A stretch of 64,000 nt of DNA. It comes from Methylomarinum vadi (GTDB taxonomy: Bacteria > Pseudomonadota > Gammaproteobacteria > Methylococcales > Methylomonadaceae). The stretch covers positions 558,001 to 622,000 of the forward strand of contig NZ_JPON01000001.1 in assembly GCF_000733935.1 (NCBI RefSeq), read 5' to 3'. Every line of letters starts with the position of its first letter. The stretch's first letter is position 1. The notes beneath the pieces were generated by a model. The model saw only the letters and a program-made list of their open reading frames with translations. It had not been told where the DNA came from and ran no database searches. This document shows positions 40,650-63,584 of this stretch, piece by piece. Made by a program: the position numbers and the translations under genes.

Positions 40650-42458
40650 TTAAAGTGAGAACACCATCACGCCGCCGCCCATTTGGGTATGGTGCGCCAG
40701 CTCCTTGAACGCGCCCACCGCGCCCAGGCCGGCGGTTGGATCCTGTAGGTCGAACACCAGACCGACCCCCGGCCAGCCGCCGACGCCATAGTAGATCGCG
40801 ACGTATTGTTTGCCGTCGTGTTTATAGGTGATCGGGTGGCCGATGACGCCGGAAGGCAGCTTGAATTTCCATAGCTCCTCGCCGGTTTCAGAATGAAGGG
40901 CCTTGATGTAGCCGTCCAGCGTGCCGTAGAAGACCAGATCGCCGGCGGTCGCCAACGTGCCGCCCCAGACCGCGAATTTCTCCTGCACTTCCCAGGCGAA
41001 CTCGCCGGTCACGGCGTTCATCGCCTTGACCTGACCCAACGTTCCTTTAGGCCCCGGATACATGTTCAGCGTCGCGCCGACGAAGAACTGGCCCGCGCGG
41101 TACGGCAGCATGAACGGCTCCCAGTCCATACATATATGGTTGACGCCCATGAAGAACAACTGCCTGGCCGGGTCGTAGGACTCGATGCCCTGGTTGTGAT
41201 AGCCCATCGCCGACGGACAAATGCCTTTGGCCTCGTGGTCCATGCGTGTCGAATATTCCGGATCGCGGATCGGCAGTCCGGTTTTCAGGTCGACCTTCTT
41301 GACCCAGTTGACGGTGTCGTCGATCTTGAAGGCGTTGACCAGATCGCCGGTCTCACGATTCAGGGTGTAGACGATGCCGTTGCGGTCCGGATGGGTCAGC
41401 AGCTTGGTCATGCGGCCGTTGACTTTTTGCTCGGACAGACCCATGTAGTTGACGCCGGCGTAATCCCATTCGTCGTGCGGCGTTTTTTGATAACCGAACT
41501 TGGCCTCGCCGCTATCGATGTCGCGGCCCCAGATGGTCATGGTCCATTTGTTATCGCCGGGACGCATGGTTTCGTTCCAAGGCGCCGGGTTGCCGGAACC
41601 GTAATACAGCATTTCCAGATCAATGTCGTAAGCGTACCAGCCCCAATTGGTGCCGCCGCCGATTTTCCAGGCGTCGCCTTCCCAGGTTTTCTGGCCCAAA
41701 CCGAAACGGCCGTAATGCGGGTTGGCGGCGTTGAAATCCTTGGCCAACTTGATGTCCTCGTCCGGCCCGGTGGCGTAAACGCGCCATTCCTGCTTGCCGT
41801 CCTTGATGTTATAGGCGGTCGCATAACCGCGCACGCCCAACTCGGCGCCGGAACTACCGACGATCACCTTATCCTTGGCGACGAACGGGGCGACGGTCAG
41901 CGTCGAACCCATCGCGATATCGGAGTTTTCCATTTTCCAGCGCAGTTTGCCGTTTTTCGCGTCCAGTGCGACGATATGGCCGTCCAGTTGATTCAGGAAA
42001 ATGGTCGCCGGATAATCCTTGGTGCCCGGCGCGTAAGCCAGGCCCCGGTTGACGACGTCGCAACAGGCGACGGCCCGCGCCGCCGGATTTTGTTTCGGCT
42101 TGTACTGCCACAGGATTTCGTCGGGTTTGTCCAGGTTTATCGCGTAGACGTTGTTCGGGAAGGGGCTGTGCACATACATGATGCCGTCGATCACTAACGG
42201 ACCGCCCTCGTGCCCGTTCAACACGCCGGTCGAGAACGACCAGGCCGGCTTCAGCTTATGCACGTTGGTGACATTGATGTCGTACATCGGACTATAGTGA
42301 GTGGACTTGTAGTCCTTGGTCTGCATCACCCAATTGGTGTTTTGCATCGACAGCTTGTCCAATTCTTTGTTGGCGTATGACGGTTGCGACACCGTCATAG
42401 CGACGCCCGACGCAATCGCCGCCGCGCCCATGTTCCGCGCAAATTTCGAAATTTGCAT
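40650..42458 (-). CDS. mxaF: PQQ methanol dehydrogenase large subunit, calcium type
   Basis: MxaF oxidises methanol to formaldehyde in the periplasm with PQQ and Ca2+. The 602-residue precursor has a signal peptide ending QPSYA, the vicinal cysteine pair C132-C133 that stacks on PQQ, propeller repeats ending in tryptophan-docking motifs, and the catalytic Asp in [12 protein letters not shown]. The residue two after that Asp is Ala (A334); lanthanide XoxF enzymes have Asp there, so this is the Ca2+ form, consistent with mxaI and mxaG nearby. A GGAGG site precedes the ATG. It is the first gene of the minus-strand cluster. Confidence 0.98.
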
Positions 42459-49621: not shown

Positions 49622-49783
49622 CATTCAAATAATTCGCTTATAGGATTTCTTAAGCAAACTGATAAGTATAAGCCACCATTTTGCTACATTCAGATCGCGG
49701 AAAAACATCGCTCGCCACTGGCTGATGTTTACCAGTGATCGGACGGAGGCTTAATGTGGGAAATGTTGCTATATCGCAATGAA

Positions 49784-49795
49784 ATGTTATAACAT
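49784..49795. promoter_or_regulatory. Zur box in front of zur
   Basis: ATGTTATAACAT is a perfect 12-bp palindrome inside GAAATGTTATAACATAAC, very close to the proteobacterial Zur consensus (GTTATA-centred dyad). It lies 31 bases before the zur start codon, where a repressor would block transcription, so autoregulation is likely. Confidence 0.75.
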
Positions 49796-49826
49796 AACGC
49801 TAAGAACGAGATACGCCATTTTCTCA

Positions 49827-50336
49827 ATGACGCAACAAGCTGAAATGATTGTGCTAGAGCATTCTCCGACAACGCATGACCATAATGGTTGCCGTGCGAA
49901 GGCGATGCACACTGCGGAACAATTGTGTAGCCAACGCGGGGTTCGCTTTACACCCATTCGACGTGAAGTACTCGAACTGATCTGGGAAAGTCATCGGGCG
50001 GTCAAGGCTTATGATTTGCTTGATCGGATCAAGCCAAAATCGGGTACAGCCAAGCCCGCCACGGTCTACCGGGCATTGGATTTTCTGTTGGAACAAGGAC
50101 TGATTCACAAGGTGGAAAGTCTGAACGCCTTTATCGGATGCAGTTTTTCGGATCGTCGGCACGAGCAGTTATTGCTGACTTGCGTTCAATGCCATGAAGT
50201 CGAGGAAAGGCCTGGCGAACGGGTGATGGAAGCCATAGCAAAGGAACTTGAATTGGCATCATTTACTATGCAACGTAAGGCCATCGAAATTCATGGCATC
50301 TGCGGTCGATGCGCGCAGGCCAAAGCAGTTGGCTAA
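49827..50336 (+). CDS. zur: Fur-family zinc uptake regulator Zur
   Basis: The start at 49827 is preferred because the longer frame (from 49779) would begin inside the operator palindrome. The 169-residue protein has a Fur winged helix (RGVRFTPIRREVLELIWESH; KPATVYRALDFLLEQGLIHK) and two CxxC structural zinc pairs (LTCVQCHEVEE and GICGRCAQ). The FIGCSFSDRRHEQLLL segment matches Zur rather than Fur. With zinc bound it should repress the cluster that follows; loss of zinc opens it. Confidence 0.88.
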   Translation: MTQQAEMIVLEHSPTTHDHNGCRAKAMHTAEQLCSQRGVRFTPIRREVLELIWESHRAVKAYDLLDRIKPKSGTAKPATVYRALDFLLEQGLIHKVESLNAFIGCSFSDRRHEQLLLTCVQCHEVEERPGERVMEAIAKELELASFTMQRKAIEIHGICGRCAQAKAVG

Positions 50337-50386
50337 CTCGGCATAAACCTAGGAAAACTGACATCCTTTTCACGCACTTAGATGAA

Positions 50387-50398
50387 ACGATATAACAT
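50387..50398. promoter_or_regulatory. Second Zur-like box, before the TonB receptor
   Basis: ACGATATAACAT matches the zur box at 10 of 12 positions, with one half-site (TATAACAT) intact. It lies 29 bases before the receptor start and may give the receptor and following genes a second Zur-controlled promoter. Confidence 0.55.
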
Positions 50399-50427
50399 TG
50401 GAAATTAACAACAAATTTGGAATGCTG

Positions 50428-52470
50428 ATGCACAAAAAACTCATCTTACTGGCCGCTTCGGACTCTATTGCAATAAGCGTTCAAGCCGAAGAACAAGCTA
50501 TCACTGAGCTCGAACCGGTGATCGTCACATCCCCATTGCAATTGAAACTATCCGAAAGCGCCATGCCTGTGACGGTTTTAAGCGATGATGAATTACGGAT
50601 GAAAACCGGTCACAGCATTGGCGAAACCCTGAAAAACGAGTTGGGCATCAACAGCCAGTCGTTTGGCCCCGGAGTCGGTACGCCGGTGATACGCGGCCAA
50701 GCTGGCCCCAGGGTACGGGTGTTGAACAACGGCATCGGCAGCAACGACGCGTCTGCGATCAGTCCGGATCACGCGACCAGCATCGAGCCGCTGCTCGCCG
50801 AACGCATTGAAGTGCTGCGTGGACCGGCGACATTGTTGTATGGCAGCGGTGCGATGGGCGGCGTGGTCAATGTCATCGACAACCGAATTCCCGGCAAGGC
50901 TTTTGACAAAGCGTTGAATGCCGCACTGGAGCAACGCTTCGACTCCACCAGCGACGAAACCAGCACAGCAATGAAAGTCGAAGGCAGTAAGGATCACATC
51001 GCTTACCATGTGGACGGTTTCTACCGCCACCGTAATAACCTGGATATTGGCGGTCGCGGCATCGATACCGCCAAAGTCGCCATCACCGACCCTTCCTTGG
51101 AGGTTGTCGACAATCCCTATGGCTATCTGAATAACACCGGTGCCGAAGCCATCAGCGGCTCGGCCGGTTTGTCGTGGATAGACGATTTCGGCTTTGCCGG
51201 CGTTTCATACAATAACATCAATAACAATTATGGCATTGCGCCGGACGGTACCGGCGAAGAAACAGTGCGCATCGCCATGCGGCAAAGCAAATACGATTTT
51301 AAGAGCGAGTTGAACAATCCGTTTAAATTCGCCAAAAGCATCAAGACTCGGCTGGGCTATACCGACTATGAGCATACCGAAATTGCTAATGGTGAACCGG
51401 GTGCTTATTTCACCAATCAAACCTATGAAGGCCGTATGGAGTTCGAACACCACGATATCGGTCCACTGCGCGGTGTCGTCGGATTTCAAGCGCAAGCGAG
51501 CGATTTCAACGCCATAGAAAAACTCAGCGGTGAAATTATTGTGCCGCGATCGGATATCACCAGTTATGGCGTATTTGGCGTCGAATCCTTCGATATCGGT
51601 CCGGTCACTTATCAATTCGGCATCCGCGTCGAACAAACCGACATTCGCCCGGACGGCATGAACAGCCTCAGTTACACCCCCGTCAGCGCCTCGGCTTCTG
51701 CTTTATGGAAACTGGATAATCGCAACAGCCTGAATCTGGCCATCACCCGTTCATCGCGGGCGCCCAATGTCCAGGAGTTGTTATCCAACGGCTATCACGA
51801 CGCTACCCGCAGTTTCGAGATCGGCAGCCTGAGTTTAAAAGAAGAAACTTCGTACAACCTGGATCTGGGCTACCGCTTCAAAAGCGACTGGCTGCGCGCC
51901 GAGTTCGACCTGTTCCACAACTGGGCGACCGACTATATCGCCCAGCAACGCAGTGGCGAATTCGTGGATGAAGACGGTAGCAATGCCTGTGCACCAGACT
52001 GCACTATTCCCGTGGTTGTCAGTACCCAGAACGACGCGATATTCAAAGGCTACGAAGCCAAGTTGATTTTCCCGATGATGGAAAACCACTATGGCCTGCT
52101 GGAGCTGACCCTGTTCAGCGACTACACCCGCGGCGAATTCGTCAATGGCGGCGACGTGCCGCGCATGCCGCCACTACGTTACGGCTTTCAGTTGGATTAC
52201 AACAAAAATAAACTTTCCAGCTACCTGCGCTTGACCCGCGCTGACGACCAGCCTCATGCCGGGGATTTTGAAACCTCGACCGCCGGCTATTTCCTGCTCA
52301 ACGTCGGCGTCAATTATCAGGTCAAGCTGTATAAAGAGTCCAATTTAATGCTGTTCGCGAAAGGCAACAATCTGCTGGACGAAAACATCCGTAACTCGAC
52401 GTCATACCTGCGCAACTTTGCGCCGGAAGCAGGACGCGGTGCGGAAGTCGGCTTTAGAGTCAGTTACTAA
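50428..52470 (+). CDS. TonB-dependent outer-membrane receptor, ZnuD-like
   Basis: ATG 50428 is chosen over upstream ATG and TTG codons because GGA lies 6 bases before it. The 680-residue protein has a leader ending VQA, a TonB-box-like LEPVIVTS, the plug domain (VIRGQAGPRVRVLNNGIGSN; RIEVLRGPATLLYGSGAMGG) and a 22-strand barrel ending in Phe-like aromatic (GFRVSY). Position under a Zur box suggests zinc or zinc-chelate uptake, as for ZnuD. The GNNLLDENIRNSTSYLRNFA end is common in this group. Substrate identity is inferred. Confidence 0.85.
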   Translation: MHKKLILLAASDSIAISVQAEEQAITELEPVIVTSPLQLKLSESAMPVTVLSDDELRMKTGHSIGETLKNELGINSQSFGPGVGTPVIRGQAGPRVRVLNNGIGSNDASAISPDHATSIEPLLAERIEVLRGPATLLYGSGAMGGVVNVIDNRIPGKAFDKALNAALEQRFDSTSDETSTAMKVEGSKDHIAYHVDGFYRHRNNLDIGGRGIDTAKVAITDPSLEVVDNPYGYLNNTGAEAISGSAGLSWIDDFGFAGVSYNNINNNYGIAPDGTGEETVRIAMRQSKYDFKSELNNPFKFAKSIKTRLGYTDYEHTEIANGEPGAYFTNQTYEGRMEFEHHDIGPLRGVVGFQAQASDFNAIEKLSGEIIVPRSDITSYGVFGVESFDIGPVTYQFGIRVEQTDIRPDGMNSLSYTPVSASASALWKLDNRNSLNLAITRSSRAPNVQELLSNGYHDATRSFEIGSLSLKEETSYNLDLGYRFKSDWLRAEFDLFHNWATDYIAQQRSGEFVDEDGSNACAPDCTIPVVVSTQNDAIFKGYEAKLIFPMMENHYGLLELTLFSDYTRGEFVNGGDVPRMPPLRYGFQLDYNKNKLSSYLRLTRADDQPHAGDFETSTAGYFLLNVGVNYQVKLYKESNLMLFAKGNNLLDENIRNSTSYLRNFAPEAGRGAEVGFRVSY

Positions 52471-52549
52471 ACACGCTGTAGATCAAGACGTTACGGGTTA
52501 TCCGTCACGTCTTTTTTAAACCTCATAAACGTCACAATATATCATTGCC

Positions 52550-53773
52550 ATGTCGTTAACTGTCATTGACCCGAGCTCCGCAAAATTACCTGTCACCGTA
52601 CTCTCCGGTTTTCTCGGTGCCGGTAAAACCACGCTGCTAAAGCATATTCTCACCAACCGCGACAATCGCCGTGTGGCCGTTATCGTCAATGATATGAGCG
52701 AAGTCAATATTGACGCGGCATTAGTCAAAAACGAAGTGCAACTGAATCGTGGCCAGGAAAAACTGGTCGAAATGAGCAACGGGTGCATTTGCTGCACCTT
52801 ACGCGAGGACTTGCTGATCGAGGTCGGCAACTTGGCCAAGGAAGGCCGCTTTGATTATCTGGTGATCGAGTCCACCGGTATCGCCGAACCCTTGCCAATC
52901 GCCGAGACCTTCACTTTCCGGGACGAACAAGGCATCAGCCTGTCCGACATCGCCCGCCTCGACACCCTGGTCACCGTGGTGGATGCAGTCAATTTCATGC
53001 GCGATTACCAGGAAGCCTTGAGCCTGAAAGAGGCCGGCGAAGCCCAGGGCGAAGACGATGAGCGCAATGTCGCCGATCTGCTGGTCGATCAAATCGAATT
53101 CGCCAACGTCATCCTGATTTCCAAGATCGACCTCATTTCCAGCGACGAAATCTCTAACCTCAAAGCCGTCTTATATAGCCTCAATCCCGACGCAGACATC
53201 GTGTCCATGGTGATGGGTCAAGTCGATTTGCATAAGGTACTGAACACCGGCCTGTTCGATTTCGAAAAAGCCGAACAAGCGCCGGGTTGGCTGAAGGAAC
53301 TGCGCGGTGAGCACATTCCAGAGACCGAGGAATACGGCATCGGCAGCTTTGTTTACAGTGCCCGCCGGCCGTTTCATCCACAACGCTTCTACGAGCATCT
53401 GCATGACGGCGAATGGGACAACGGCACTCTGTTGCGCTCCAAGGGCTTTTTCTGGCTGGCTTCGCGTCCTGATCACGCAGGCAGTTGGTCCCAGGCGGGT
53501 GGCGTCATGCATCACGGGCTGGCCGGTCGCTGGTGGGCGTCGGTCCCCAAGGAACAATGGCCGGCGGACTATCTGGACGACATCGAATCGCAATGGGAAG
53601 AACCTTACGGCGATTGCCGTCAGGAACTGGTGTTCATCGGTCAAAACGTCGATGCTAAAAAAGTGTGCATGGAACTCGACGCCTGCCTGCTAACCGAAGC
53701 CGAATTGGCGGCCGGTCCGAACACTTGGCGCAACTACCGGGATGATTTCCCTCAGTGGTTTGCCGATGGCTAG
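52550..53773 (+). CDS. COG0523 GTPase, ZigA-like zinc metallochaperone (first of three)
   Basis: COG0523 G3E GTPases deliver metal to client proteins. The 407-residue protein has Walker [10 protein letters not shown], the metal-binding CxCC in NGCICCTLR, Walker B region [10 protein letters not shown], the guanine motif SKID and a long C-terminal CobW_C domain ([36 protein letters not shown]). The long form with RRPFHP resembles ZigA/YciC proteins of zinc starvation. It overlaps the next gene by 8 bases. Confidence 0.9.
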
Positions 53774-54011
53774 CCTCGACACCTATTTACACATCATTGG
53801 CATCGAGTTGTTGGCGATTCTGGCAATTGTCCTACCGCTGTTGAACAACCGGTCCCATAAGCGTGCGTTATCGACGGTATTTCTGGTCGTGATGGGCTTC
53901 ACGTTGGCGCACTTCGCCACGCACTTATTACCCGGCAAAATCGCCGCGTTCATCTACAGCTCGCACCACGAATACCGTTCCATAAAAACACCGGCTCTGG
54001 GCAGAACATGA
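53766..54011 (+). CDS. Small two-helix membrane protein of unknown function
   Basis: ATG 53766 lies within the end of the GTPase gene, and the stop at 54011 overlaps the ZIP start (ATGA), so the gene is tightly coupled on both sides. The 81-residue product has two hydrophobic segments ([36 protein letters not shown]) and a His-rich tail (HFATHL, SSHHEY). The coupling suggests a partner of the ZIP transporter or the GTPase. No family is recognised. Confidence 0.65.
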
Positions 54012-54793
54012 CCATTGTCTTAACGACCGTAACCGGCACAATTGCCGCCTGTCTCGCCGTCAGTTTATGCACGCTGTCGAGTGCGATTGCGCTCTGGCTA
54101 AAACCTGAGACATTAAAATGGCTGGTACCCAATCTGGTGGCCTTGGCTGTTGGTGTACTGCTGGGCGATGCCTTCATTCATCTGATTCCCGATGCCATTC
54201 AGCGCCATGGGGCAGTCAGCGAGGTCTGTCTGACCGTGCTAATCGGTATGTTTGTTTTTTTCATGTTGGAAAAAGGCGTGCGCTGGCGTCACGACCACAA
54301 CGTCGACACCCGCCCATCCACCGATCACATTTTGCCTTTGGCCAAAATGAATCTGATCGGCGATGCCATGCATAACTTTGTCGACGGCATTCTGATCGCG
54401 GGTAGCTTTCTGGCCGATCCGGTTATGGGACTGACCACCACGCTGGCCATCATTGCGCACGAAATCCCCCAGGAGCTGGGCGATGTCGGTGCGCTGCTGC
54501 GCGGCGGATTTAAGCCGCGTCAGGCCGTGCTGTACAACTTTTACTGCTCGCTGAGTGTGTTGCCGGGCGCAATTTTTACCTTGCTGCTCAGTCAGGTCGC
54601 CGAATCGTCCTTAATCGTATTACTGCCGATTGCCGCCGGCGGCTTCATCTATATTGCCGCTTCCGACCTAATTCCCGTGTTGCATGAACGCTCCAGCCTG
54701 ATTCATCTAGGCGGTCAGAGCGCGGCTTTTGCATCGGGCATCGGTTTCATGCAATTCATCGTATTTTTCGAACAAGCCTTGCTGACTACCTAA
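54008..54793 (+). CDS. ZIP-family zinc transporter
   Basis: The 261-residue protein has about eight hydrophobic segments. The two transport motifs are present: GDAMHNFVDGILIAG (helix 4) and IAHEIPQELGDVGALL (helix 5), whose His, Asp and Glu form the binuclear metal site. The cytosolic loop has HDHN. ZIP proteins bring divalent metal into the cytosol without ATP; zinc is the likely substrate given the Zur box. Confidence 0.92.
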   Translation: MTIVLTTVTGTIAACLAVSLCTLSSAIALWLKPETLKWLVPNLVALAVGVLLGDAFIHLIPDAIQRHGAVSEVCLTVLIGMFVFFMLEKGVRWRHDHNVDTRPSTDHILPLAKMNLIGDAMHNFVDGILIAGSFLADPVMGLTTTLAIIAHEIPQELGDVGALLRGGFKPRQAVLYNFYCSLSVLPGAIFTLLLSQVAESSLIVLLPIAAGGFIYIAASDLIPVLHERSSLIHLGGQSAAFASGIGFMQFIVFFEQALLTT

Positions 54794-54804
54794 GGAGTTT
54801 TTCA

Positions 54805-55521
54805 ATGTTCGCCCGTGTTCCATTTCGTCAATCTGACATTGCATCGCCCATCATTGCCTCTGGATTTCGCCCGCTATTCAACCCCTCGGCAAGCAGGAAC
54901 GTCATCTCTAATCAGTTCGCCGATTTATCGCGCATCTATGAAGACGGCGTCAATTTGTGCCTGATCGAACGGCCGTTACCTGCAGCTATAGAGCAATTCG
55001 TCTACCGGGCTTTGCAAAATGTCGGCAGTATCGAGATTAGCCAGCCGGTCGATCCGCTGCAATTCGACTTCAACAAGCTATGGCCGGCAACCGCACAAAT
55101 ACCCGGTTATCGAGACTGGCTGGCCGATGTCGAGTTACTGGTCACGGCGTTCTGCGAACTGTTCGAACGCCGTGAAGCCGGTTTACGCCTAAGGACACTG
55201 GATAAAGCCATGTGCCCGCGCTTCCACGTCGACCGGGTGCCGGCGCGGATGATTTGCAGTTACGGCGGCATCGGTACCGAATGGCTACCGGAATATGCAT
55301 TCGAGCGCGCCAAATTGGGCATGGGCGGTTGCGGCTTGCCGGATGCCGAATCCGGCCTGATTGCCGATCCCACCGCAATCCGGCAAATGCCCGCTTACGC
55401 GGTGGGGCTGATGAAAGGCGAAAACTGGGAAGGCAACGAAGGTCATGGCTTAGTGCATCGCTCGCCGCAGCCAACCGCCGTGCAGCCACGCAGATTGTTG
55501 TTGACTCTGGATATGCTGTAG
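54805..55521 (+). CDS. DUF1826 protein
   Basis: AAGGAG precedes ATG 54805 at good distance. The 238-residue protein has the DUF1826 features DKAMCPRFHVDRVPARMICS, a possible metal site with Cys and His, and a C-terminal GNEGHGLVHRSPQPT, with a TYGGIGTEWL-like middle. DUF1826 genes are known neighbours of COG0523 GTPases in Zur-controlled clusters; the function is unknown. It may be a zinc-independent or zinc-scavenging oxygenase-like protein, but that is only a guess from the HxD-like motif. Confidence 0.8.
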   Translation: MFARVPFRQSDIASPIIASGFRPLFNPSASRNVISNQFADLSRIYEDGVNLCLIERPLPAAIEQFVYRALQNVGSIEISQPVDPLQFDFNKLWPATAQIPGYRDWLADVELLVTAFCELFERREAGLRLRTLDKAMCPRFHVDRVPARMICSYGGIGTEWLPEYAFERAKLGMGGCGLPDAESGLIADPTAIRQMPAYAVGLMKGENWEGNEGHGLVHRSPQPTAVQPRRLLLTLDML

Positions 55522-55531
55522 GGAGACGGAT

Positions 55532-57208
55532 TTGCTGATCAAGTTAACGGGTGGGCGGATTTACGATCCCGCGCAAAACCTACACGGCGAACAGCGTGAC
55601 CTGTTCATTCAAGATGGACTGATGGCAAATGATCCCGGTCCGGATGCGCACTTCGACGCGGTTTATGATCTGGCGGGCAAAATTGTCATGGCCGGGGCCA
55701 TCGACATTCACAGCCACATCGCCGGCGGTAACGTCAACACTGCCCGGCTGTTGCTACCGGAACAGCATCGCAACCACATGGCCCGGCGGCTTAACCATCC
55801 CTTCAGCACCGCCAAATGGTCGACCACCGACACCGGCTACCGCTACGCCCGCATGGGCTACACCACCGTGGTCGAACCGGCGATGCTGCCGGTCGACGCG
55901 TTGGACGTGCATCTGCAAATGGCCGACATTCCAATTCTGGACACCGCCGCGCTGGCGATACTGGGCAACGACGATTTATTGCTGCGGTTGATGCGGTCCA
56001 AGGCCAGCCAGAACCAGATCAACGATTACGTGGCCTGGACCTTGAACGCCACCCGCGCGATGGGCCTGAAGATCATCAACGCCGGCGGCGCCAACGCCTT
56101 TAAAAGTAACGTCCGCCAATTCGGCCTGGACGACATCGTGCCGGATTACGGCGTCAGCTCGCGGCAAATTCTGCAAACCCTGCAAACTGCCGCCTGCCAG
56201 ATCGGCGTACCGCATCCGCCGCACGTCCATTGCAACAACCTCGGCATTCCCGGCAACGTCGACACCATCGTTGCCACCATGGACGCCGCGCAAGGCTTGC
56301 CGATGCACCTTGCCCACGTGCAGTTCTACGCCTACGGCAGCGAAGGCGCGAAAGGCTTTTCGTCGGCGGCGGCCAAACTGCTGGAAGCCTTCAACCGCCA
56401 CCCCAACATCACCATGGACGTCGGCCAAGTGCTGTTCGGCCAAACGGTGACGATCTCCGGCGATGTAATTGCCCAATACAGCCGCCACGCCGACGCCAGC
56501 CCGAGCAAATACGTGATGTGGGACGCCGAAACAGAAGGCTCCGGCGGCGTGGTGCCGTACCGTTACCGCGAAGCCAGCTTCGTCAACACCCTGCAATGGG
56601 CGATCGGTTTGGAACTGTTTTTACTGGCCGAGGCGCCGGAACGGCTGTTTTTTACCACCGACCACCCCAATGGCGCACCATTTACCGCCTACCCGGAACT
56701 GTTGCGCTTACTGATGGACGCCGACTACCGGCAGCAGTGCATGGCACGTCTGAATCAGGAAGCCTTGGCACTGACCCTGCTGCCGAATTTGAAGCGCGAA
56801 CTGAGCTTGAGCGAAGTTGCCACCATGACCCGCTCCGCCGCTGCCAAATTGCTGGGCCTCAACGATCGCGGTCATCTCGCCCCTGGCGCCATCGCCGACA
56901 TTGTGGTTTACGATCCGCACACGCGATCCGACCAAGCCGCTGGTTCTCGTCCCGATTACCAAGCCATGTTCGCTAACGCCGCACTGCTGTTCAAAAACGG
57001 CCGCCTGGTGGTGCAGGACGGTGTGGTGATCGAGCGGCCGACCGGTCTGGCGCAAACCGTCAGCCCGATCTACGACACCGGCATCACCCGCACCGTCAAA
57101 CAGCATTTCGACCGTTTTTACAGTTTGAAACTCAGTCAATACGGGGTCAACGATGCCGATTTCGATGATCTCGGGCAGCCGCGTTTCCGCAATATTGCCT
57201 TGTCTTAG
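55532..57208 (+). CDS. fhcA: Formylmethanofuran dehydrogenase/hydrolase subunit A-like amidohydrolase
   Basis: FhcA hydrolyses formyl-methanofuran to formate in the methanopterin-linked formaldehyde oxidation path of methylotrophs. The TTG start has GGGAG 7 bases before it. The 558-residue protein has the expected family length, and the ligands of the binuclear metal site are visible: HSH at 60-62, a carboxylatable Lys at 180 (MGLKIINAGG), His 233 (HVHCNN), His 262 (MHLAHVQF) and Asp 377 (TTDHPNG). fhcB, C and D are not here, and the gene sits within the Zur cluster, so it may be a second copy for zinc shortage. Dihydroorotase is less likely given length and the HVQFYAYG segment. Confidence 0.85.
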   Translation: MLIKLTGGRIYDPAQNLHGEQRDLFIQDGLMANDPGPDAHFDAVYDLAGKIVMAGAIDIHSHIAGGNVNTARLLLPEQHRNHMARRLNHPFSTAKWSTTDTGYRYARMGYTTVVEPAMLPVDALDVHLQMADIPILDTAALAILGNDDLLLRLMRSKASQNQINDYVAWTLNATRAMGLKIINAGGANAFKSNVRQFGLDDIVPDYGVSSRQILQTLQTAACQIGVPHPPHVHCNNLGIPGNVDTIVATMDAAQGLPMHLAHVQFYAYGSEGAKGFSSAAAKLLEAFNRHPNITMDVGQVLFGQTVTISGDVIAQYSRHADASPSKYVMWDAETEGSGGVVPYRYREASFVNTLQWAIGLELFLLAEAPERLFFTTDHPNGAPFTAYPELLRLLMDADYRQQCMARLNQEALALTLLPNLKRELSLSEVATMTRSAAAKLLGLNDRGHLAPGAIADIVVYDPHTRSDQAAGSRPDYQAMFANAALLFKNGRLVVQDGVVIERPTGLAQTVSPIYDTGITRTVKQHFDRFYSLKLSQYGVNDADFDDLGQPRFRNIALS

Positions 57209-57215
57209 CCAACCT

Positions 57216-58994
57216 ATGCCATCAAATCGCTCAACACTCGAAACCGATCTGGAAACCTTGCGCCACGACTGCGCCCACCTGTTGGCGCAAGCCGTCAAGG
57301 AGTTATATCCGGCCGTCCAAGTCGCCATCGGTCCGGCCATCGAACACGGCTTTTATTACGATTTTGCGTTTCCAGAGCCGTTGACCGCCGACGAATTGCC
57401 GGCCATCGAGCAGCGCATGCGCGAGATCGTTTTCCGCCGCGAACCCATTCGGCGGGAAGAATGGCCCCGTGCCGAAGCCGATGCGTTTTTCGCCGCAACA
57501 GGCGAACGCTTTAAACAAGAGTTGCTGGTCGCCATTCCGGAACACGAGACCATCAGCGTCTACCGGCAGGGCGAATTTACCGACCTGTGCCGTGGCCCGC
57601 ACGGCGCGGATACCGGGCAAATTGGACTTGCCTTTAAATTACTGAAGCTGGCGGGCGCTTATTGGCGCGGCGATCATCGCCAGCCCATGCTGCAACGCAT
57701 CTACGGCACGGTATGGCCGACTCAGGAGGAGCTGGATCGCTATCTCAAGCAATTGGCGGAAGCGGAATTGCGCGATCATCGCCGTCTGGGGCGAGACATG
57801 GACTTATTTCATTTTCAGGAACAGGCACCGGGCTCGGTATTCTGGCACCCCAAGGGTTGGCGTTTGTTCCAGCGGCTAATCGATTACTTGCGGCAACGGC
57901 AAAAGGCGGCGGGTTATCAGGAAATCAACACCCCGGATGTCATGGACATAGGCCTGTGGCAAGACTCCGGCCACTGGGAAAAATTCGGCGAACACATGTT
58001 TACCACCCAACCCCCGGATGAACGGATTTTCGCACTCAAGCCGATGAACTGCCCCGGCGGCGTTCAGGTATTCAAACAGGGTTTGCGCAGCTACCGGCAA
58101 TTGCCCTTGCGGCTGGCGGAGTTCGGTAAGGTGCATCGCTACGAACCGTCCGGCGCCTTGCACGGTTTGATGCGGGTGCGTTCGTTCACTCAGGACGATG
58201 CCCATATCTTTTGCAGCGAGCAGCAGATTACTCAAGAAAGCCTGACCATTTGCGAACTGATATTAAGCATCTATCGCGACTTCGGTTTTCACGACATCCG
58301 CATCAAATTTTCCGACCGCCCGCCACAACGGGTGGGTAGCGATGCGGTTTGGGACCAGGCCGAGCAGGCCTTGATTCAAGCCATGCAAACCAGCGGACTG
58401 CCCTATACGCATAATCCCGGCGAAGGCGCGTTTTACGGTCCGAAGCTGGAATTTGTGCTGCGCGATGCGGTGGGGCGCGACTGGCAATGCGGTACCTTGC
58501 AAGTCGACCTCAATTTGCCTGGGCGATTAGGCGCTTATTACATCGATACCGACGGCAACAAGCAAACCCCGGTGATGCTACATCGGGCTTTGTTTGGTTC
58601 GCTGGAGCGCTTTACCGGTATTTTGCTGGAGCATTACGCCGGTTGGCTGCCGTTCTGGCTGGCACCCTTGCAAGTGGTGGTCGCGCCCATCAGCGCACCA
58701 ACCGAAGCCTATGCGCTGGAGGTTGCCGGGCAATTAAACACCGCCGGTTTGCATGTGGAAACCGACTTACGCAATGAAAAAATCGGCTACAAGATCCGTG
58801 AACACAGTTTAGCCAAAGTGTCGCTGTTAATCGTGGTCGGCCAGCAGGAAATGCAAGACGGTCTAGTCACACTGCGCTGGCTGCACGGCGGACATCAGCA
58901 AACCTTGCCATTGGTGCAAGCGGTCGCTGAATTGACGAGACAAAATCGTTTCCCTTCAGGAAAAGCTAATAACGAAACAGAACCCGTTGAATAA
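57216..58994 (+). CDS. thrS: Threonyl-tRNA synthetase paralogue lacking the TGS domain
   Basis: ATG 57216 is chosen because it is the first after the fhcA stop; the longer frame overlaps fhcA. The 592-residue protein starts directly with the editing domain (HDCAH at 17-21, CRGPH at 125-129), so the usual N-terminal TGS domain of about 60 residues is absent. The catalytic domain keeps all three zinc ligands by pattern (MNCPGG, QDDAHIFC, MLHRALFG) and motif 2/3 sequences, followed by an anticodon domain. Extra thrS copies under Zur are known from cyanobacteria. It remains a zinc enzyme, so any advantage must be in affinity or regulation. Confidence 0.9.
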   Translation: MPSNRSTLETDLETLRHDCAHLLAQAVKELYPAVQVAIGPAIEHGFYYDFAFPEPLTADELPAIEQRMREIVFRREPIRREEWPRAEADAFFAATGERFKQELLVAIPEHETISVYRQGEFTDLCRGPHGADTGQIGLAFKLLKLAGAYWRGDHRQPMLQRIYGTVWPTQEELDRYLKQLAEAELRDHRRLGRDMDLFHFQEQAPGSVFWHPKGWRLFQRLIDYLRQRQKAAGYQEINTPDVMDIGLWQDSGHWEKFGEHMFTTQPPDERIFALKPMNCPGGVQVFKQGLRSYRQLPLRLAEFGKVHRYEPSGALHGLMRVRSFTQDDAHIFCSEQQITQESLTICELILSIYRDFGFHDIRIKFSDRPPQRVGSDAVWDQAEQALIQAMQTSGLPYTHNPGEGAFYGPKLEFVLRDAVGRDWQCGTLQVDLNLPGRLGAYYIDTDGNKQTPVMLHRALFGSLERFTGILLEHYAGWLPFWLAPLQVVVAPISAPTEAYALEVAGQLNTAGLHVETDLRNEKIGYKIREHSLAKVSLLIVVGQQEMQDGLVTLRWLHGGHQQTLPLVQAVAELTRQNRFPSGKANNETEPVE

Positions 58995-59407
58995 TGAATC
59001 ACTCCGAATCAGCGCCGCCGACTTGCGGCCTCTATACCCTGAAAATCCAGGCCCAATTTTGCGCCGCCCATGCCTTGCGCGATTACCCCGGCGATTGCCG
59101 CCGCCTGCATGGGCATAACTGGAAAGTCGAAACCGAGGTAGAAGCCAAAGTGCTGAATGACATCGGTATTGCCATCGATTTCAAAGCCATCAAGGCGGCC
59201 ACCCGGACTTTGGCCGATAGCCTGGATCACCGGTTTTTGAACGACATCGAACCCTTCGACCGCATCAACCCCAGCGCCGAAAACCTGGCGGCCTGGTTTT
59301 ACCGGCAATTGTCGAAAATCTTGAATGGCAGCGGCGTCAGTGTCAGCGCCGTCACGATCTGGGAAACCGACACCGCCTGCGTCCGCTACAAGGAGATCGC
59401 TGCATGA
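58994..59407 (+). CDS. queD: 6-carboxytetrahydropterin synthase QueD-type
   Basis: The 137-residue protein has the zinc ligands in [10 protein letters not shown] and LHGHNWKVE and the catalytic Cys in GDCRRLHGH, the form typical of QueD rather than of folate-bypass PTPS-III. It converts dihydroneopterin triphosphate to carboxytetrahydropterin for queuosine. It overlaps thrS by one base (TAATG) and folE2 by 4, so it is supplied with its precursor by the next gene. Confidence 0.88.
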
Positions 59408-60189
59408 ACAATTGTGTTATCGAAGACATCCAAGGTCGCGCCGACAGTCGCCGCATCGCCATCGACAAAGTCGGCATCAAGGACATCCTGCATCCGGTGC
59501 GGGTACAGGATAAATTCGGCGGCGAGCAACATACCGTGGCCCGCTTCGACATGACCGTGAATCTGCCGCACGACTTCAAGGGCACTCACATGTCGCGTTT
59601 CGTCGAGATTTTGAATAGCCACGACCGCGAAATCAGCATCGCCTCGTTCCCGATCATGTTGCAAGAAATGCTGCAGCGGTTGGAAGCCGAATCCGGCTAC
59701 ATCGACATGCGCTTTCCGTATTTTGTCGAAAAAGCCGCGCCGGTCAGCGGCGTGCGCAGTCTGCTGGATTATCAGGTCAGCTTCATCGGCGAAATCGACG
59801 CCCAAGGCTGCCGCACCAAAGTCAAAATCGTGGTGCCGGTGACCAGCCTGTGCCCGTGTTCCAAGGAAATCTCCGCGCGCGGCGCTCACAACCAGCGCTC
59901 GCACGTGACCGTGACAATTGCGACCAGGGAATTCATCTGGCTGGAAGAATTGATTGCGCTGGTCGAGTCCGAGGCTTCGTCGCCCATCTATGGCTTGCTG
60001 AAGCGTCCCGACGAAAAATACGTGACCGAATACGCTTACGACCACCCCAAATTCGTCGAAGACATGGTTCGCGACGTGGCCGCCCGACTGGAAGCTGAAC
60101 CTCGCATCACGGCTTACATCGTGGAATCCGAGAACTTCGAGTCGATTCACAATCATTCGGCGTATGCCTTGATCAAGGGGGTGAAATGA
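59404..60189 (+). CDS. folE2: GTP cyclohydrolase IB (zinc-independent type)
   Basis: The 261-residue protein is the COG1469 form: [20 protein letters not shown] with the catalytic Cys, and [18 protein letters not shown] near the end. FolE2 replaces zinc-dependent FolE under zinc limitation because it works with other divalent metals, and it is a classic Zur target. In a methanotroph the product also feeds the pterin path to methanopterin. It overlaps both neighbours by 4 bases. Confidence 0.95.
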
Positions 60190-60602
60190 ATCTGTTCAAA
60201 CATGCGGAAACCCTGGCCGTTGGTGACAGCCTGTCCTGGGAAGCCGTCTTGGCTGAGCTACCCTTCAACGCCGACGGCCTGTTACCGGCCATTGCCCAGC
60301 AAGTCGACAGCGGAGAAGTATTGATGCTGGCCTGGATGAACCGCGCCGCCATCCTGGAAACCCTGAGTAGCGGCCGGGTGTGCTATTGGTCGCGTTCGCG
60401 GCAGCGCTTATGGCGCAAAGGCGAGACGTCCGGGCATTATCAAACGCTGAAAGAACTGCGCATCGATTGCGACGGCGACACCTTGTTGCTGCTGGTCGAT
60501 CAGCAAGGGCCAGCCTGTCACACCGGGCGCCGCAGCTGTTTCTATCATACGGTGCAGGGTGATCGCGTGGTTATGAACAGCGCACCGCAGAACACCGCTT
60601 AA
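60186..60602 (+). CDS. hisI: Phosphoribosyl-AMP cyclohydrolase paralogue
   Basis: The 138-residue protein has the HisI motifs [34 protein letters not shown], and the metal ligands in [20 protein letters not shown] and [10 protein letters not shown]. HisI is a zinc enzyme of histidine synthesis. It overlaps folE2 by 4 bases and is not with other his genes, so it is likely a second, low-zinc copy, as known for Zur clusters. Confidence 0.9.
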
Positions 60603-60628
60603 TTCACTTCTTTGGAGAAATCTCGTTC

Positions 60629-61627
60629 ATGAATACCGCCCCAAAACTCAACTACCCGGTGCCAGTCACCATCCTGACCGGCTTTCTAGGCGCTGGTAAA
60701 ACCACGTTACTGAACCGCATTCTCACCGAACATCACGGTCGGCGCATTGCGGTGATCGAAAACGAATTCGGCGAAACCGGTATCGACAACGAGTTGCTGG
60801 TGCAAGCCGACGAGCAAATCGTCACCATGAACAACGGTTGTATCTGTTGCACGGTACGCGGCGATCTGGTACGCATCCTGGGCGAATTGTCCGAGCGCCG
60901 AGAAAACGGCGACGTGCATTTCGAGCGGGTGATCATCGAAACCACCGGTCTGGCCGATCCGGCGCCGGTGGCGCAAACCTTTTTCATCGAGCAGGACATC
61001 GCCGAAAACTACAAACTGGATGCCATTGTCACCGTGGTTGATGCGGTGCATGCCCATCAACAACTGCAAGAACACCACGAAGCGCAAGAACAAGTCGGCT
61101 TCGCTGATCGGATTTTGTTGTCAAAAACCGATTTGCAGGAAGCCGAAGTGGTCGCCGATCTGGAAACCCGCTTGCGAGCGATGAACCCAAGAGCGCCGAT
61201 CAAACGCGTACATTTCGGCGCCACCGAGTTGCACGACATCCTGGACATCGACGGCTTCAATCTGGACGACATCCTGAAAATCGAACCGGACTTTCTAGAA
61301 GATGTCAGCCACGAACACGAGGACGACATCAGCTCGTTCGTATTCAGTTGTGAACGGGAGCTGGATGCTGCAAGGATACTGGCCTTTCTGGACATCATGG
61401 TGCGCCATTTCGGTAACGACCTATTGCGCTACAAAGGCATTTTGAACATTGCCGGTTGCGACAAGCGAGTAATTTACCAAGGCGTACACATGTTGATGAC
61501 GCAGGATTTTGTCACTCCCTGGCAAAATGGGGAAACCAAGACATCCAATCTGGTCTTTATTGGCCGTAATTTACCCAAACAGGAGATGCTGGAGGCGTTG
61601 GAATCGTGCCAAGTGGTGTCTCAATGA
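60629..61627 (+). CDS. COG0523 GTPase, YjiA-like (second of three)
   Basis: The 332-residue protein has Walker [10 protein letters not shown], the switch segment IENEFGETGIDNELL, CxCC in NGCICCTVR, the Walker B region IIETTGLADPAP, guanine motif SKTDL and a C-terminal domain with HEHEDDISSFVF and a His-rich run. It belongs to the YjiA/CobW-like short form. The histidine segment suggests binding of zinc or a similar metal. Confidence 0.9.
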   Translation: MNTAPKLNYPVPVTILTGFLGAGKTTLLNRILTEHHGRRIAVIENEFGETGIDNELLVQADEQIVTMNNGCICCTVRGDLVRILGELSERRENGDVHFERVIIETTGLADPAPVAQTFFIEQDIAENYKLDAIVTVVDAVHAHQQLQEHHEAQEQVGFADRILLSKTDLQEAEVVADLETRLRAMNPRAPIKRVHFGATELHDILDIDGFNLDDILKIEPDFLEDVSHEHEDDISSFVFSCERELDAARILAFLDIMVRHFGNDLLRYKGILNIAGCDKRVIYQGVHMLMTQDFVTPWQNGETKTSNLVFIGRNLPKQEMLEALESCQVVSQ

Positions 61628-61664
61628 ACTTTCAAAGCTTGTTAGCGAATCTTTTGTGCATCGC

Positions 61665-62648
61665 ATGACCAGGGAATTGCCCAAAATCCCCGTTATTGTG
61701 ATCACCGGTTTTCTCGGTAGCGGCAAGACCACGCTGTTAAACCGTTTATTGGCAGACGGGGTGAAGACGGCGGTGGTGATCAACGAATTCGGCGCCACGC
61801 CTATCGATCAGGACTTGATACTGAGTCAAGACATCCCGATGACGGTATTATCGGGCGGTTGCTTGTGCTGCCAGATCAAAGGCGCACTGGCACCGACTTT
61901 GAAGAACTTGTGGATGGCTTGGAATCAGATTGAAGCCAAGCCGTTCGAACGGCTCATCATCGAGACCAGCGGCGTTGCCAGTCCGGAACCCATTTTGGAT
62001 ACACTGCTGCGCGAATCCTGGTTGTGCAAACGCTACCGCTTGCAGCAAATCGTCGCTACGCTGGCGATACCGTCGGCCATTGACCAATTGCAGCGCCACG
62101 CCGAAGCGCGTGCGCAAATGACTTGGGCCGACCTGTTGCTGTTGACTCACGCCGATCTGGCCAATACCGCGCAACAGGCGGAATTGATCGGCTACTTGCA
62201 GCGTCATGCACCGGCCACGCCAACGTTGGCGGTTAGGCTGGATCAGTTCGACGCAGCCACTTTGCAAGGCTATGCGTATCCCGCTTTTCGACGGATGCCG
62301 ACCGGCAAGCTTGTGGCTGAACACGGCTTTCGTAGCGTGTCGCTTTATCTGGAGCACATTCCGGATTGGCCCAGATTGCAAGCCACGTTGCAAACCTTGT
62401 TGGCAAACCATGCCGATGACTTGGTTCGAATCAAAGGGCTGATTTATTTGCCTGACTGTGCGGCGCCGTTGGCCGTGCATGGTGTCGCCGGTCAATTGTA
62501 TCCACCTGTACCATTGCCGGAACGTCCGAACCAGGACAGACGTAGCCGATTAGTGTTGATTACGGTTTCCAATCCGGAACTTTTGGCCAACGAATTGTTA
62601 ATCCACTTGGGAGCGGAACCCAATCAGAGCCCGATACGGCTGCATTGA
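61665..62648 (+). CDS. COG0523 GTPase (third of three)
   Basis: ATG 61665 is the first start after the previous stop at 61627. The 327-residue protein has Walker A GFLGSGKTT, INEFGATPIDQDL, a variant metal motif GGCLCCQIK, IIETSGVASPEP and a C-terminal CobW_C-like part (LYLEHIPDWPRLQATLQTLL; DDLVRIKGLIYLPD). It lacks a His-rich segment, and the guanine motif is degenerate (THADL in place of SKxD). It may serve a different client. It is the last gene of the cluster. Confidence 0.85.
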   Translation: MTRELPKIPVIVITGFLGSGKTTLLNRLLADGVKTAVVINEFGATPIDQDLILSQDIPMTVLSGGCLCCQIKGALAPTLKNLWMAWNQIEAKPFERLIIETSGVASPEPILDTLLRESWLCKRYRLQQIVATLAIPSAIDQLQRHAEARAQMTWADLLLLTHADLANTAQQAELIGYLQRHAPATPTLAVRLDQFDAATLQGYAYPAFRRMPTGKLVAEHGFRSVSLYLEHIPDWPRLQATLQTLLANHADDLVRIKGLIYLPDCAAPLAVHGVAGQLYPPVPLPERPNQDRRSRLVLITVSNPELLANELLIHLGAEPNQSPIRLH

Positions 62649-62984: not shown

Positions 62985-63584
62985 TTACGTTTTACCAGAG
63001 CCATTCCGTTTTTCTGCCACATAGGAGAAGAATTTTCGCCTCCCTACGCCGGTAATCTCACAAACCTCGGCGGCGGTTTTGTCCGAGTTTTCGTAGAGGA
63101 TTCTGGCATTCTCCAATTTTTCCGGGTCAGTTTTAGGTCTTCCACCCGTTTTGCCCCGCGCTTTAGCGGATGAACGTCCCGCTGCCGCCCGCTCTGCGCG
63201 AAGTTCCCGCTCCATTTGGTGAATAGCGCCCATCATCGACAAGAAACAACGACCCGTTGCGGATGTGGTATCGATATTTTCACGCAATGACACTAAGTTA
63301 ATTTGCCGCTGTTCCAGCACCTTTGCAGTGGTCAGTAAATCCATCAAAGAGCGCGTCATGCGGCTTAATTCGCTGACCACCAAGGTATCGCCTGGGCGAG
63401 CATATTCTAAAAGCTGATCCCAGCCGGGTCGATCCATGTGCGAACCGGTCATCTTGTCGGAAAATATTTTGCCGCCCCCGGCTTTTTGCAACGCATCAAT
63501 CTGAGAATCCAGATTTTGGTGAACGTAGAGTGCAAAAAGTGTACTTTCTGCACTCGCCGAAAAGCGGTGTCGAATGAACGTCAA
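62985..63584 (-). pseudogene. tnpR: Tn3-type resolvase lacking the catalytic-serine motif
   Basis: From NLDSQIDALQKAGGGKIFSD on, the protein follows Tn3-family resolvases (SELSRMTRSLMDLL; TSATGRCFLSMMGAIHQMER; HTH AAEVCEITGVGRRKFFSYV). The expected N-terminal Y-A-R-V-S-T segment is replaced by LYVHQ, so the active serine and about 4 neighbours are gone in frame. The residues before this (FIRHRFSASAESTLFA) read into the res region and are not resolvase-like. It should be unable to recombine DNA. Confidence 0.7.

Follow-up and report, generated by a model that had tools for sequence, protein, structure and literature searches.

A zinc-related gene cluster with a second FhcA

A stretch of 64,000 nucleotides (nt) from the genome of Methylomarinum vadi (contig NZ_JPON01000001.1, positions 558,001 to 622,000; referred to as the window) carries 13 genes on the + strand at positions 49827-62648, located 3' of a palindrome resembling a Zur box, as judged from family and profile matches and from reading of the open reading frames (ORFs). 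One of these genes, fhcA2 (55532..57208), encodes a second FhcA (formyltransferase/hydrolase subunit A), with a TIGR03121 score of 643 bits (cut-off, 392.75) over profile positions 2-552 of 556. It shares this cluster, which lies behind a candidate Zur box, with zur, COG0523 and zinc transport genes, the setting of a putative Zur-controlled paralog. An earlier note on this DNA, made from the letters alone, had described 13 packed genes after a Zur box with an FhcA-like gene between the DUF1826 gene and thrS, and that gene as well as every family named there was found in its place.

The cluster begins with a zur gene of the Fur family (49827..50336; PF01475), whose product reached 142 bits with the PRK11639 Zur profile, below the cut-off of 167; the longest zur ORF begins within the palindrome, and 49827, chosen by eye, is the likely start. 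A ZnuD-like TonB-dependent receptor follows (50428..52470, start chosen by eye in an ORF extending from 50398; best family ZnuD, below its cut-off), and then ZigA, a COG0523 GTPase (52550..53773; NF038288, 679 bits with a cut-off of 600). The next gene (53742..54011), between zigA and the ZIP gene, encodes a small hydrophobic protein of 89 amino acids without a family match, which may belong to the zinc uptake machinery; the protein also occurs in 12 of 34 other loci of the family Methylomonadaceae. Upstream of fhcA2 lie the genes for a ZIP-family metal transporter (54008..54793; PF02535) and a DUF1826 protein (54805..55521; PF08856). Downstream are thrS2 for a second threonyl-tRNA synthetase (57216..58994; TIGR00418; start by eye, longest ORF from 57153), queD2 (58994..59407; family matches), folE2 for a FolE2-type GTP cyclohydrolase (59404..60189; family matches), hisI2 for a second phosphoribosyl-AMP cyclohydrolase (60186..60602; family match), and a second and a third COG0523 GTPase gene, named here cobW2 (60629..61627) and cobW3 (61665..62648; start by eye, longest ORF from 61509), both matching PF02492/PF07683. 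From the ZIP gene onward, intergenic gaps range from -4 to +37 nt, with some start codons picked by eye. The thrS2 and hisI2 products are 55% and 54% identical to the other ThrS and HisI of the genome, respectively. Because thrS, hisI, queD and a folE-type GTP cyclohydrolase I gene, as well as another fhcA, lie outside the cluster in the same genome, the cluster-borne thrS, hisI, queD, folE2 and fhcA are second copies, which bears out the earlier description of the first four as back-up copies of zinc enzymes.

The palindrome, GAAATGTTATAACATAAC (49781..49798), is separated by 28 nt from the likely start of zur, and a weaker Zur-box-like site, GAAACGATATAACATTGG (50384..50401; 14/18 positions matching), precedes znuD. 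The GAAATGTTATAACATAAC search pattern was composed after the site had been seen, and its 0 mismatches there follow from how it was built. When up to 3 mismatches were allowed, the pattern matched the window twice (both strands of the 49781-49798 site) against 0.17 expected, and 4 of 100 shuffles reached two matches. Across the whole genome this was the only site with 0 mismatches, and at 3 mismatches 6 and 6 sites per strand were obtained, whereas a control with the pattern reversed gave 4 and 2. At two of the weaker genome sites, 444498 and 3919909, considered as pointers to further Zur-regulon members, no zinc genes were evident in the ORFs as inspected by eye. Similar palindromes are found 5' of zur, znuD or zigA in related loci. 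We infer that Zur binds at such boxes and that the cluster is induced when zinc is short.

A genome-wide search for a further fhcA within fhcBDC, a check proposed with the earlier note, located a canonical FhcA at 3797718-3799328 of the 4.34-Mb single-contig genome, so the window copy is not the sole fhcA and the earlier reading is upheld on this point. This FhcA scores better than FhcA2 and shares 52% identity with it. Its gene lies in an operon read from the ORFs as fhcB-A-D-C, the B, D and C labels being backed by matches to the FhcA neighbors of alphaproteobacterial loci, and no zinc-family match was found near this locus. The genome contains one fhcB and one fhcC, with no second copy of either found; fhcD was not searched.

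Recurrence of FhcA2 beside zinc genes

A scan of named genomes covered the best 80 of 519 relatives, and all figures for its locus groups (43 Methylococcales-type, 10 Methylophaga-type and 2 other FhcA2 loci; 20 control loci with an fhcB neighbor; 5 marine alphaproteobacterial loci) refer to this sample. FhcA2 was present in Methylomonas, Methylobacter, Methylotuvimicrobium, Crenothrix, Methyloprofundus, Methylocaldum and Methylococcus capsulatus Texas (its carriers include the non-pathogens Methylotuvimicrobium buryatense 5G and Methylomonas sp. LW13), and relatives of it in Methylophaga and one Methylophilaceae metagenome-assembled genome (MAG). At least two zinc-cluster families adjoin FhcA2 in 40/43 Methylococcales-type, 8/10 Methylophaga-type and 1/2 other loci. 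The same holds for 0/20 loci with an fhcB neighbor (14 of them with fhcB, fhcD and fhcC matches, 6 with an fhcB-like match alone) and for 0/5 marine alphaproteobacterial loci, though 4/5 of the latter have a hisI neighbor. Canonical FhcA was detected in 13/13 FhcA2 genomes that were re-searched, and the other 7 of the 20 re-searched genomes each have just one FhcA that exceeds the cut-off. The M. muralis locus has ZigA, the zinc-uptake protein ZrgA, a Fur-family regulator and a TonB receptor, with a COG0523 gene that overlaps fhcA2 by 17 nt, while the Methylophilaceae MAG combines ZIP, HisI, QueD, an AstE/AspA-like protein, COG0523, FhcA2, DksA, ZigA and DUF1826. The earlier note had tied FhcA2 to methanotrophs and proposed a look at their other zinc clusters; fhcA is indeed present there, but the restriction to methanotrophs does not hold, since FhcA2 also occurs in the zinc clusters of Methylophaga and the Methylophilaceae MAG.

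Among the matches listed for 151 genomes of the family, a survey in which FhcA2 fragments may be missed, FhcA2 (at least 66% identity to the window protein) occurs in 34 genomes, M. vadi included, at 35 loci. At least two zinc-cluster families stand beside it in 34 of these loci, the exception (L034) being an additional copy that follows a gene read by eye as bioA-like, in a genome (G137) that also has a zinc-cluster FhcA2 (L039). Canonical FhcA was likewise listed for 32 of the 34 genomes; one genome (G013) has further matches beyond those listed and another (G025, 76% complete) has FhcA2 alone. ZigA was found in 31/34 genomes with FhcA2 compared with 19/117 without it, in counts of related genomes that are not phylogenetically corrected; in the three FhcA2 genomes without ZigA (G025, G065 and G082), FhcA2 lies on short contigs.

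The association extends to the candidate boxes and the COG0523 genes. A palindrome within 3 mismatches of TTATGTTATAACATAA is present in 30 of 61 distinct FhcA2 loci against 4.1 expected from first-order Markov sequences, and in 28 the distance to a cluster gene downstream of it is at most 400 nt. Of 25 control loci, 1 contains such a palindrome (2.9 expected), and in no control locus does it precede a cluster or fhc gene by 400 nt or less. Because the consensus was fixed after a first look at the boxes, this enrichment is partly post hoc and is counted as support and not as proof. In one locus (L109), with no zinc-cluster homolog found in 21.6 kb, the box GATATGTTATAACGTATC starts 85 nt before fhcA2 and lies behind a chaperonin gene; in another (L119), a perfect palindrome is followed by hisI and then fhcA2. 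A COG0523 gene, defined by a G-loop plus CxCC, is directly beside fhcA2 in 21/43 Methylococcales-type, 8/10 Methylophaga-type and 1/2 other loci (30/55 in all), compared with 0/25 control loci. Where the COG0523 gene is upstream (26 loci), it overlaps fhcA2 in 14; such an overlap is seen in several Methylophaga. This adjacency in 30/55 loci suggests that a COG0523 GTPase and FhcA2 may form a chaperone-client pair. Few clients of COG0523 chaperones are known.

Other FhcA arrangements were seen in the course of the survey. FhcA2-clade copies without zinc genes nearby occur at L034/L075 and L077, and one genome (G164) has three FhcAs over the cut-off, including a very divergent extra one (L171; 43% to canonical FhcA), whose distance from the canonical gene is about 5 kb. 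In streamlined marine alphaproteobacteria (L129, L126, L131 and L135), fhcA adjoins hisI on the opposite strand, and in L129 folE lies between them, giving three zinc-enzyme families in a row; the two such genomes re-searched (G161 and G169) have one FhcA over the cut-off each. The FhcA2 clade had no match on plasmids (38 plasmid records, all below 60% identity). The Methylocystis rosea plasmid pGW6_1 encodes an FhcA that shares 54% identity with FhcA2, and pyrC lies about 6 kb from it.

Conserved site and ancestry of FhcA2

Residues H60, H62, K180, H233, H262 and D377, which we take to be the metal ligands, are present in every aligned sequence, and H231 is invariant as well. The alignment comprised the window protein with 36/43 Methylococcales-type, 8/10 Methylophaga-type and 2/2 other FhcA2, 18/20 controls, and canonical rows consisting of the resident copy and 11/14 tree rows; near-copies and short or very divergent rows were left out. 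Counting the window protein, 37 Methylococcales-type FhcA2 thus retain the presumed ligands, as do 8 of Methylophaga type and the 2 others. The active site of the FhcA subunit family consists of four histidines, an aspartate and a carboxylysine (PMC11656701), and FhcA2 has this presumed binuclear set. The 12 canonical and 18 control FhcAs agree, almost without variation, at 135 columns. Methylococcales-type FhcA2 match a mean of 129.4 of these (about 96%), compared with 127.0 for Methylophaga-type, 127.0 for the two other FhcA2 and 123.0 for marine alphaproteobacterial FhcAs. An AlphaFold model of FhcA2 (mean predicted local distance difference test score [pLDDT], 77.8; below 50 at 64-96, 184-193, 300-344 and 379-385) had as its best match the FhcA of Methylorubrum extorquens in 6s6y (template modeling [TM] score, 0.84-0.87; root mean square deviation, 5.8-6.5 Å). 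Since the ligands and about 129 of the 135 columns are kept and the best match is 6s6y, FhcA2 is most likely an active, metal-requiring formyl-methylofuran hydrolase subunit. A zinc-free FhcA2 arising by ligand loss, of the kind seen in Zur-linked PyrC, HemB2 and DksA, was rejected, as all presumed ligands are kept.

A recent duplication of the resident fhcA was also rejected: uniting Methylococcales FhcA2 and canonical FhcA apart from all other rows gave a p value of 2.6e-7 in the approximately unbiased test (p-AU). Canonical gammaproteobacterial FhcA formed one group in both a quick tree of 69 rows (support, 99) and a careful tree of 37 rows (100/100). The careful tree united FhcA2 of Methylococcales and Methylophaga (100/100); the quick tree placed FhcA2 with alphaproteobacterial and Sedimenticola-type FhcA, away from the canonical group (99), and did not resolve the Methylococcales-Methylophaga union. 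A single origin of all FhcA2 rows, including the Methylophilaceae copy, was not rejected in the 37-row analysis (p-AU, 0.31), and the best tree put that copy elsewhere on a long branch; we are unsure of the positions of this copy and of L119 in these trees.

The window cluster may have been acquired horizontally, since M. vadi and M. buryatense share 71% identity in FhcA2 but 89% in canonical FhcA, neither FhcA2 nor ZigA is found in five genus mates, and a resolvase-family gene (62985-63584, -) lies just 3' of the cluster. Loss in the genus mates is an alternative. The host is likely a methanotroph, as the earlier note had assumed, because its genome contains one pmoA/amoA-family gene. A gene of the pyrroloquinoline quinone-dependent methanol/ethanol dehydrogenase family (40650-42458, -; TIGR03075) lies 7 kb from the zinc cluster, followed by genes read by eye as those of a probable cytochrome c and a solute-binding protein, a group resembling the xoxF type.

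Proposed role of FhcA2 and alternative explanations

We propose, with a probability of roughly 0.68, that fhcA2 is a Zur-controlled replacement for FhcA under zinc shortage. When zinc is sufficient, zinc-bound Zur would repress the cluster, and canonical FhcA would hydrolyze formyl-methylofuran to formate. Under zinc shortage, this repression would be lifted, and FhcA2 would be made together with the ZnuD-like receptor, the ZIP transporter, the COG0523 GTPases and the spare zinc-enzyme copies. FhcA2 would then take the place of unmetallated FhcA with the existing FhcB, FhcC and FhcD, the simplest arrangement given that the search turned up a single fhcB and a single fhcC, and formaldehyde would continue to be oxidized to formate, in keeping with the use that the earlier note had suggested. 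The least certain step concerns the binuclear center of FhcA2, which would most likely be served by preferential loading through a COG0523 GTPase or by a substitute metal such as cobalt; we place about half as much confidence in this metal-loading step as in the replacement itself. Assembly of FhcA2 into the complex and the source and identity of its metal belong to the inferred part of this proposal. The fuller proposal, in which methylotrophs short of zinc swap the catalytic Fhc subunit for an FhcA2 loaded by a dedicated COG0523 GTPase of the same cluster (its gene often adjoining or overlapping fhcA2), possibly with a non-zinc metal, is tentative and less likely than not.

Several observations weigh against a Zur-controlled replacement, the case for which comes from sequence. 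At the threshold used, 31/61 FhcA2 loci lack a box, and 6/55 loci have fewer than two zinc families (L063, L075, L077, L109, L111 and L119), with only L111 on a very short contig. In the window, fhcA2 is flanked by DUF1826 and thrS2, the COG0523 genes of the cluster being non-adjacent, and 25/55 loci have no adjacent COG0523 gene. The retained ligands mean that the protein bears no sign of a lower zinc need. Of 27 columns distinguishing canonical from sister FhcAs, Methylococcales-type FhcA2 agree with the sister type in 23 and with the resident type in 4, which gives no clear sign of adaptation of FhcA2 to its resident partners (FhcBDC). Among the matches listed, FhcA2 went undetected in 117 of the 151 family genomes, some of them incomplete, so it is not essential to the family. 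Interrupted FhcA2 copies (L035 and L052/L095), which show an apparent frameshift and an in-frame stop codon, reflect either decay or sequencing errors.

The nearest alternative departs from the proposed replacement only in the metal step, and our confidences in the two overlap: FhcA2 would be an ordinary zinc FhcA whose extra production under zinc shortage lets more apo-enzyme compete for the little zinc there is, and neither a particular metal nor a chaperone would be involved. Such an effect of dose would agree with the retained ligands, and the same option has been offered for the ligand-keeping paralogs HisI, CysRS, ThrRS, QueD and AmiA (PMC2770081). However, dose alone would not call for a separate lineage, and FhcA2 forms one instead of being copied from the resident gene; the adjacency of COG0523 genes speaks against dose too; we consider it possible but on the unlikely side. 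We find it improbable that FhcA2 acts outside the Fhc complex, as another formyl or acyl hydrolase or as a zinc store during zinc shortage. FhcA2 is unaccompanied by a second fhcB or fhcC, amidohydrolases are functionally diverse, and the model stretches with pLDDT below 50 could be partnerless loops or altered loops, but the conservation of about 96% of FhcA-invariant columns, the best match to FhcA in 6s6y and the canonical FhcA in all 13 re-searched FhcA2 genomes argue against such a role. Finally, the possible horizontal acquisition, with its identity values, genus mates and resolvase gene, would fit chance carriage of fhcA2 in a mobile zinc island where it has no role. Such hitch-hiking is very improbable given that the association recurs in Methylococcales, Methylophaga and the Methylophilaceae MAG with differing gene orders and partners, and that the L109 copy, without nearby zinc genes, has its own box.

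Relation to known zinc-linked paralogs

Nine Zur-linked paralog families have been described: HisI, PyrC, Cam, HemB, CysRS, ThrRS, amidase, QueD and DksA (Haas et al. 2009, PMC2770081). The window cluster resembles the clusters of Haas et al. in having zur, COG0523, DUF1826, folE2, thrS, queD and hisI after a Zur box with other copies elsewhere, and FhcA2 keeps its ligands, as stated there for HisI, ThrRS and QueD. It differs in that FhcA is absent from the nine families and, unlike them, belongs to dissimilatory one-carbon metabolism as a subunit of a four-subunit complex; the words "formylmethanofuran" and "Methylococcus" do not appear in the main text of that paper. Zur-linked PyrC (dihydroorotase) is a spare copy from the same amidohydrolase superfamily with the same kind of binuclear site, but it has lost its zinc ligands (PMC2770081), whereas FhcA2 keeps the presumed ones. 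FhcA2 is a full-length homolog of M. extorquens FhcA (PDB 6s6y), with aligned ligand motifs and the best structural match, but unlike it is encoded outside the fhc operon, as a second genome copy beside zinc genes. In Cupriavidus, COG0523 proteins and ZupT help to use cobalt in metal-promiscuous paralogs of zinc proteins (PMC11340326). The CobW2/CobW3/ZupT network of Cupriavidus metallidurans shares with the window cluster a ZIP transporter and COG0523 GTPases under zinc starvation (PMC11340326), and its cobalt model could, by analogy, apply to FhcA2, although FhcA does not figure in the abstract of that paper. In the available text of the Zur-regulon review PMC6103462, "formylmethanofuran", "methylotroph" and "methanotroph" were not found, and in the one paper found to contain both "fhcA" and "Zur", the latter is the German word in a reference. 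No report of a Zur-linked fhcA was found in the openly licensed papers searched, and one may exist elsewhere.

FhcA2 adds an enzyme of energy metabolism to the known repertoire of Zur paralogs, and its position beside genes expected to be induced by zinc shortage suggests that some methylotrophs, methanotrophs among them, protect a central energy pathway against such shortage. If this is correct, zinc-linked paralogs would reach from biosynthesis and translation into the formaldehyde detoxification and energy pathway of methylotrophs, and zinc supply would be tied to methane oxidation. FhcA2 would also be a concrete client candidate for COG0523 chaperones; on the fuller proposal, the main dissimilatory one-carbon pathway would include a metal-responsive subunit swap, with a COG0523 client that can be named.

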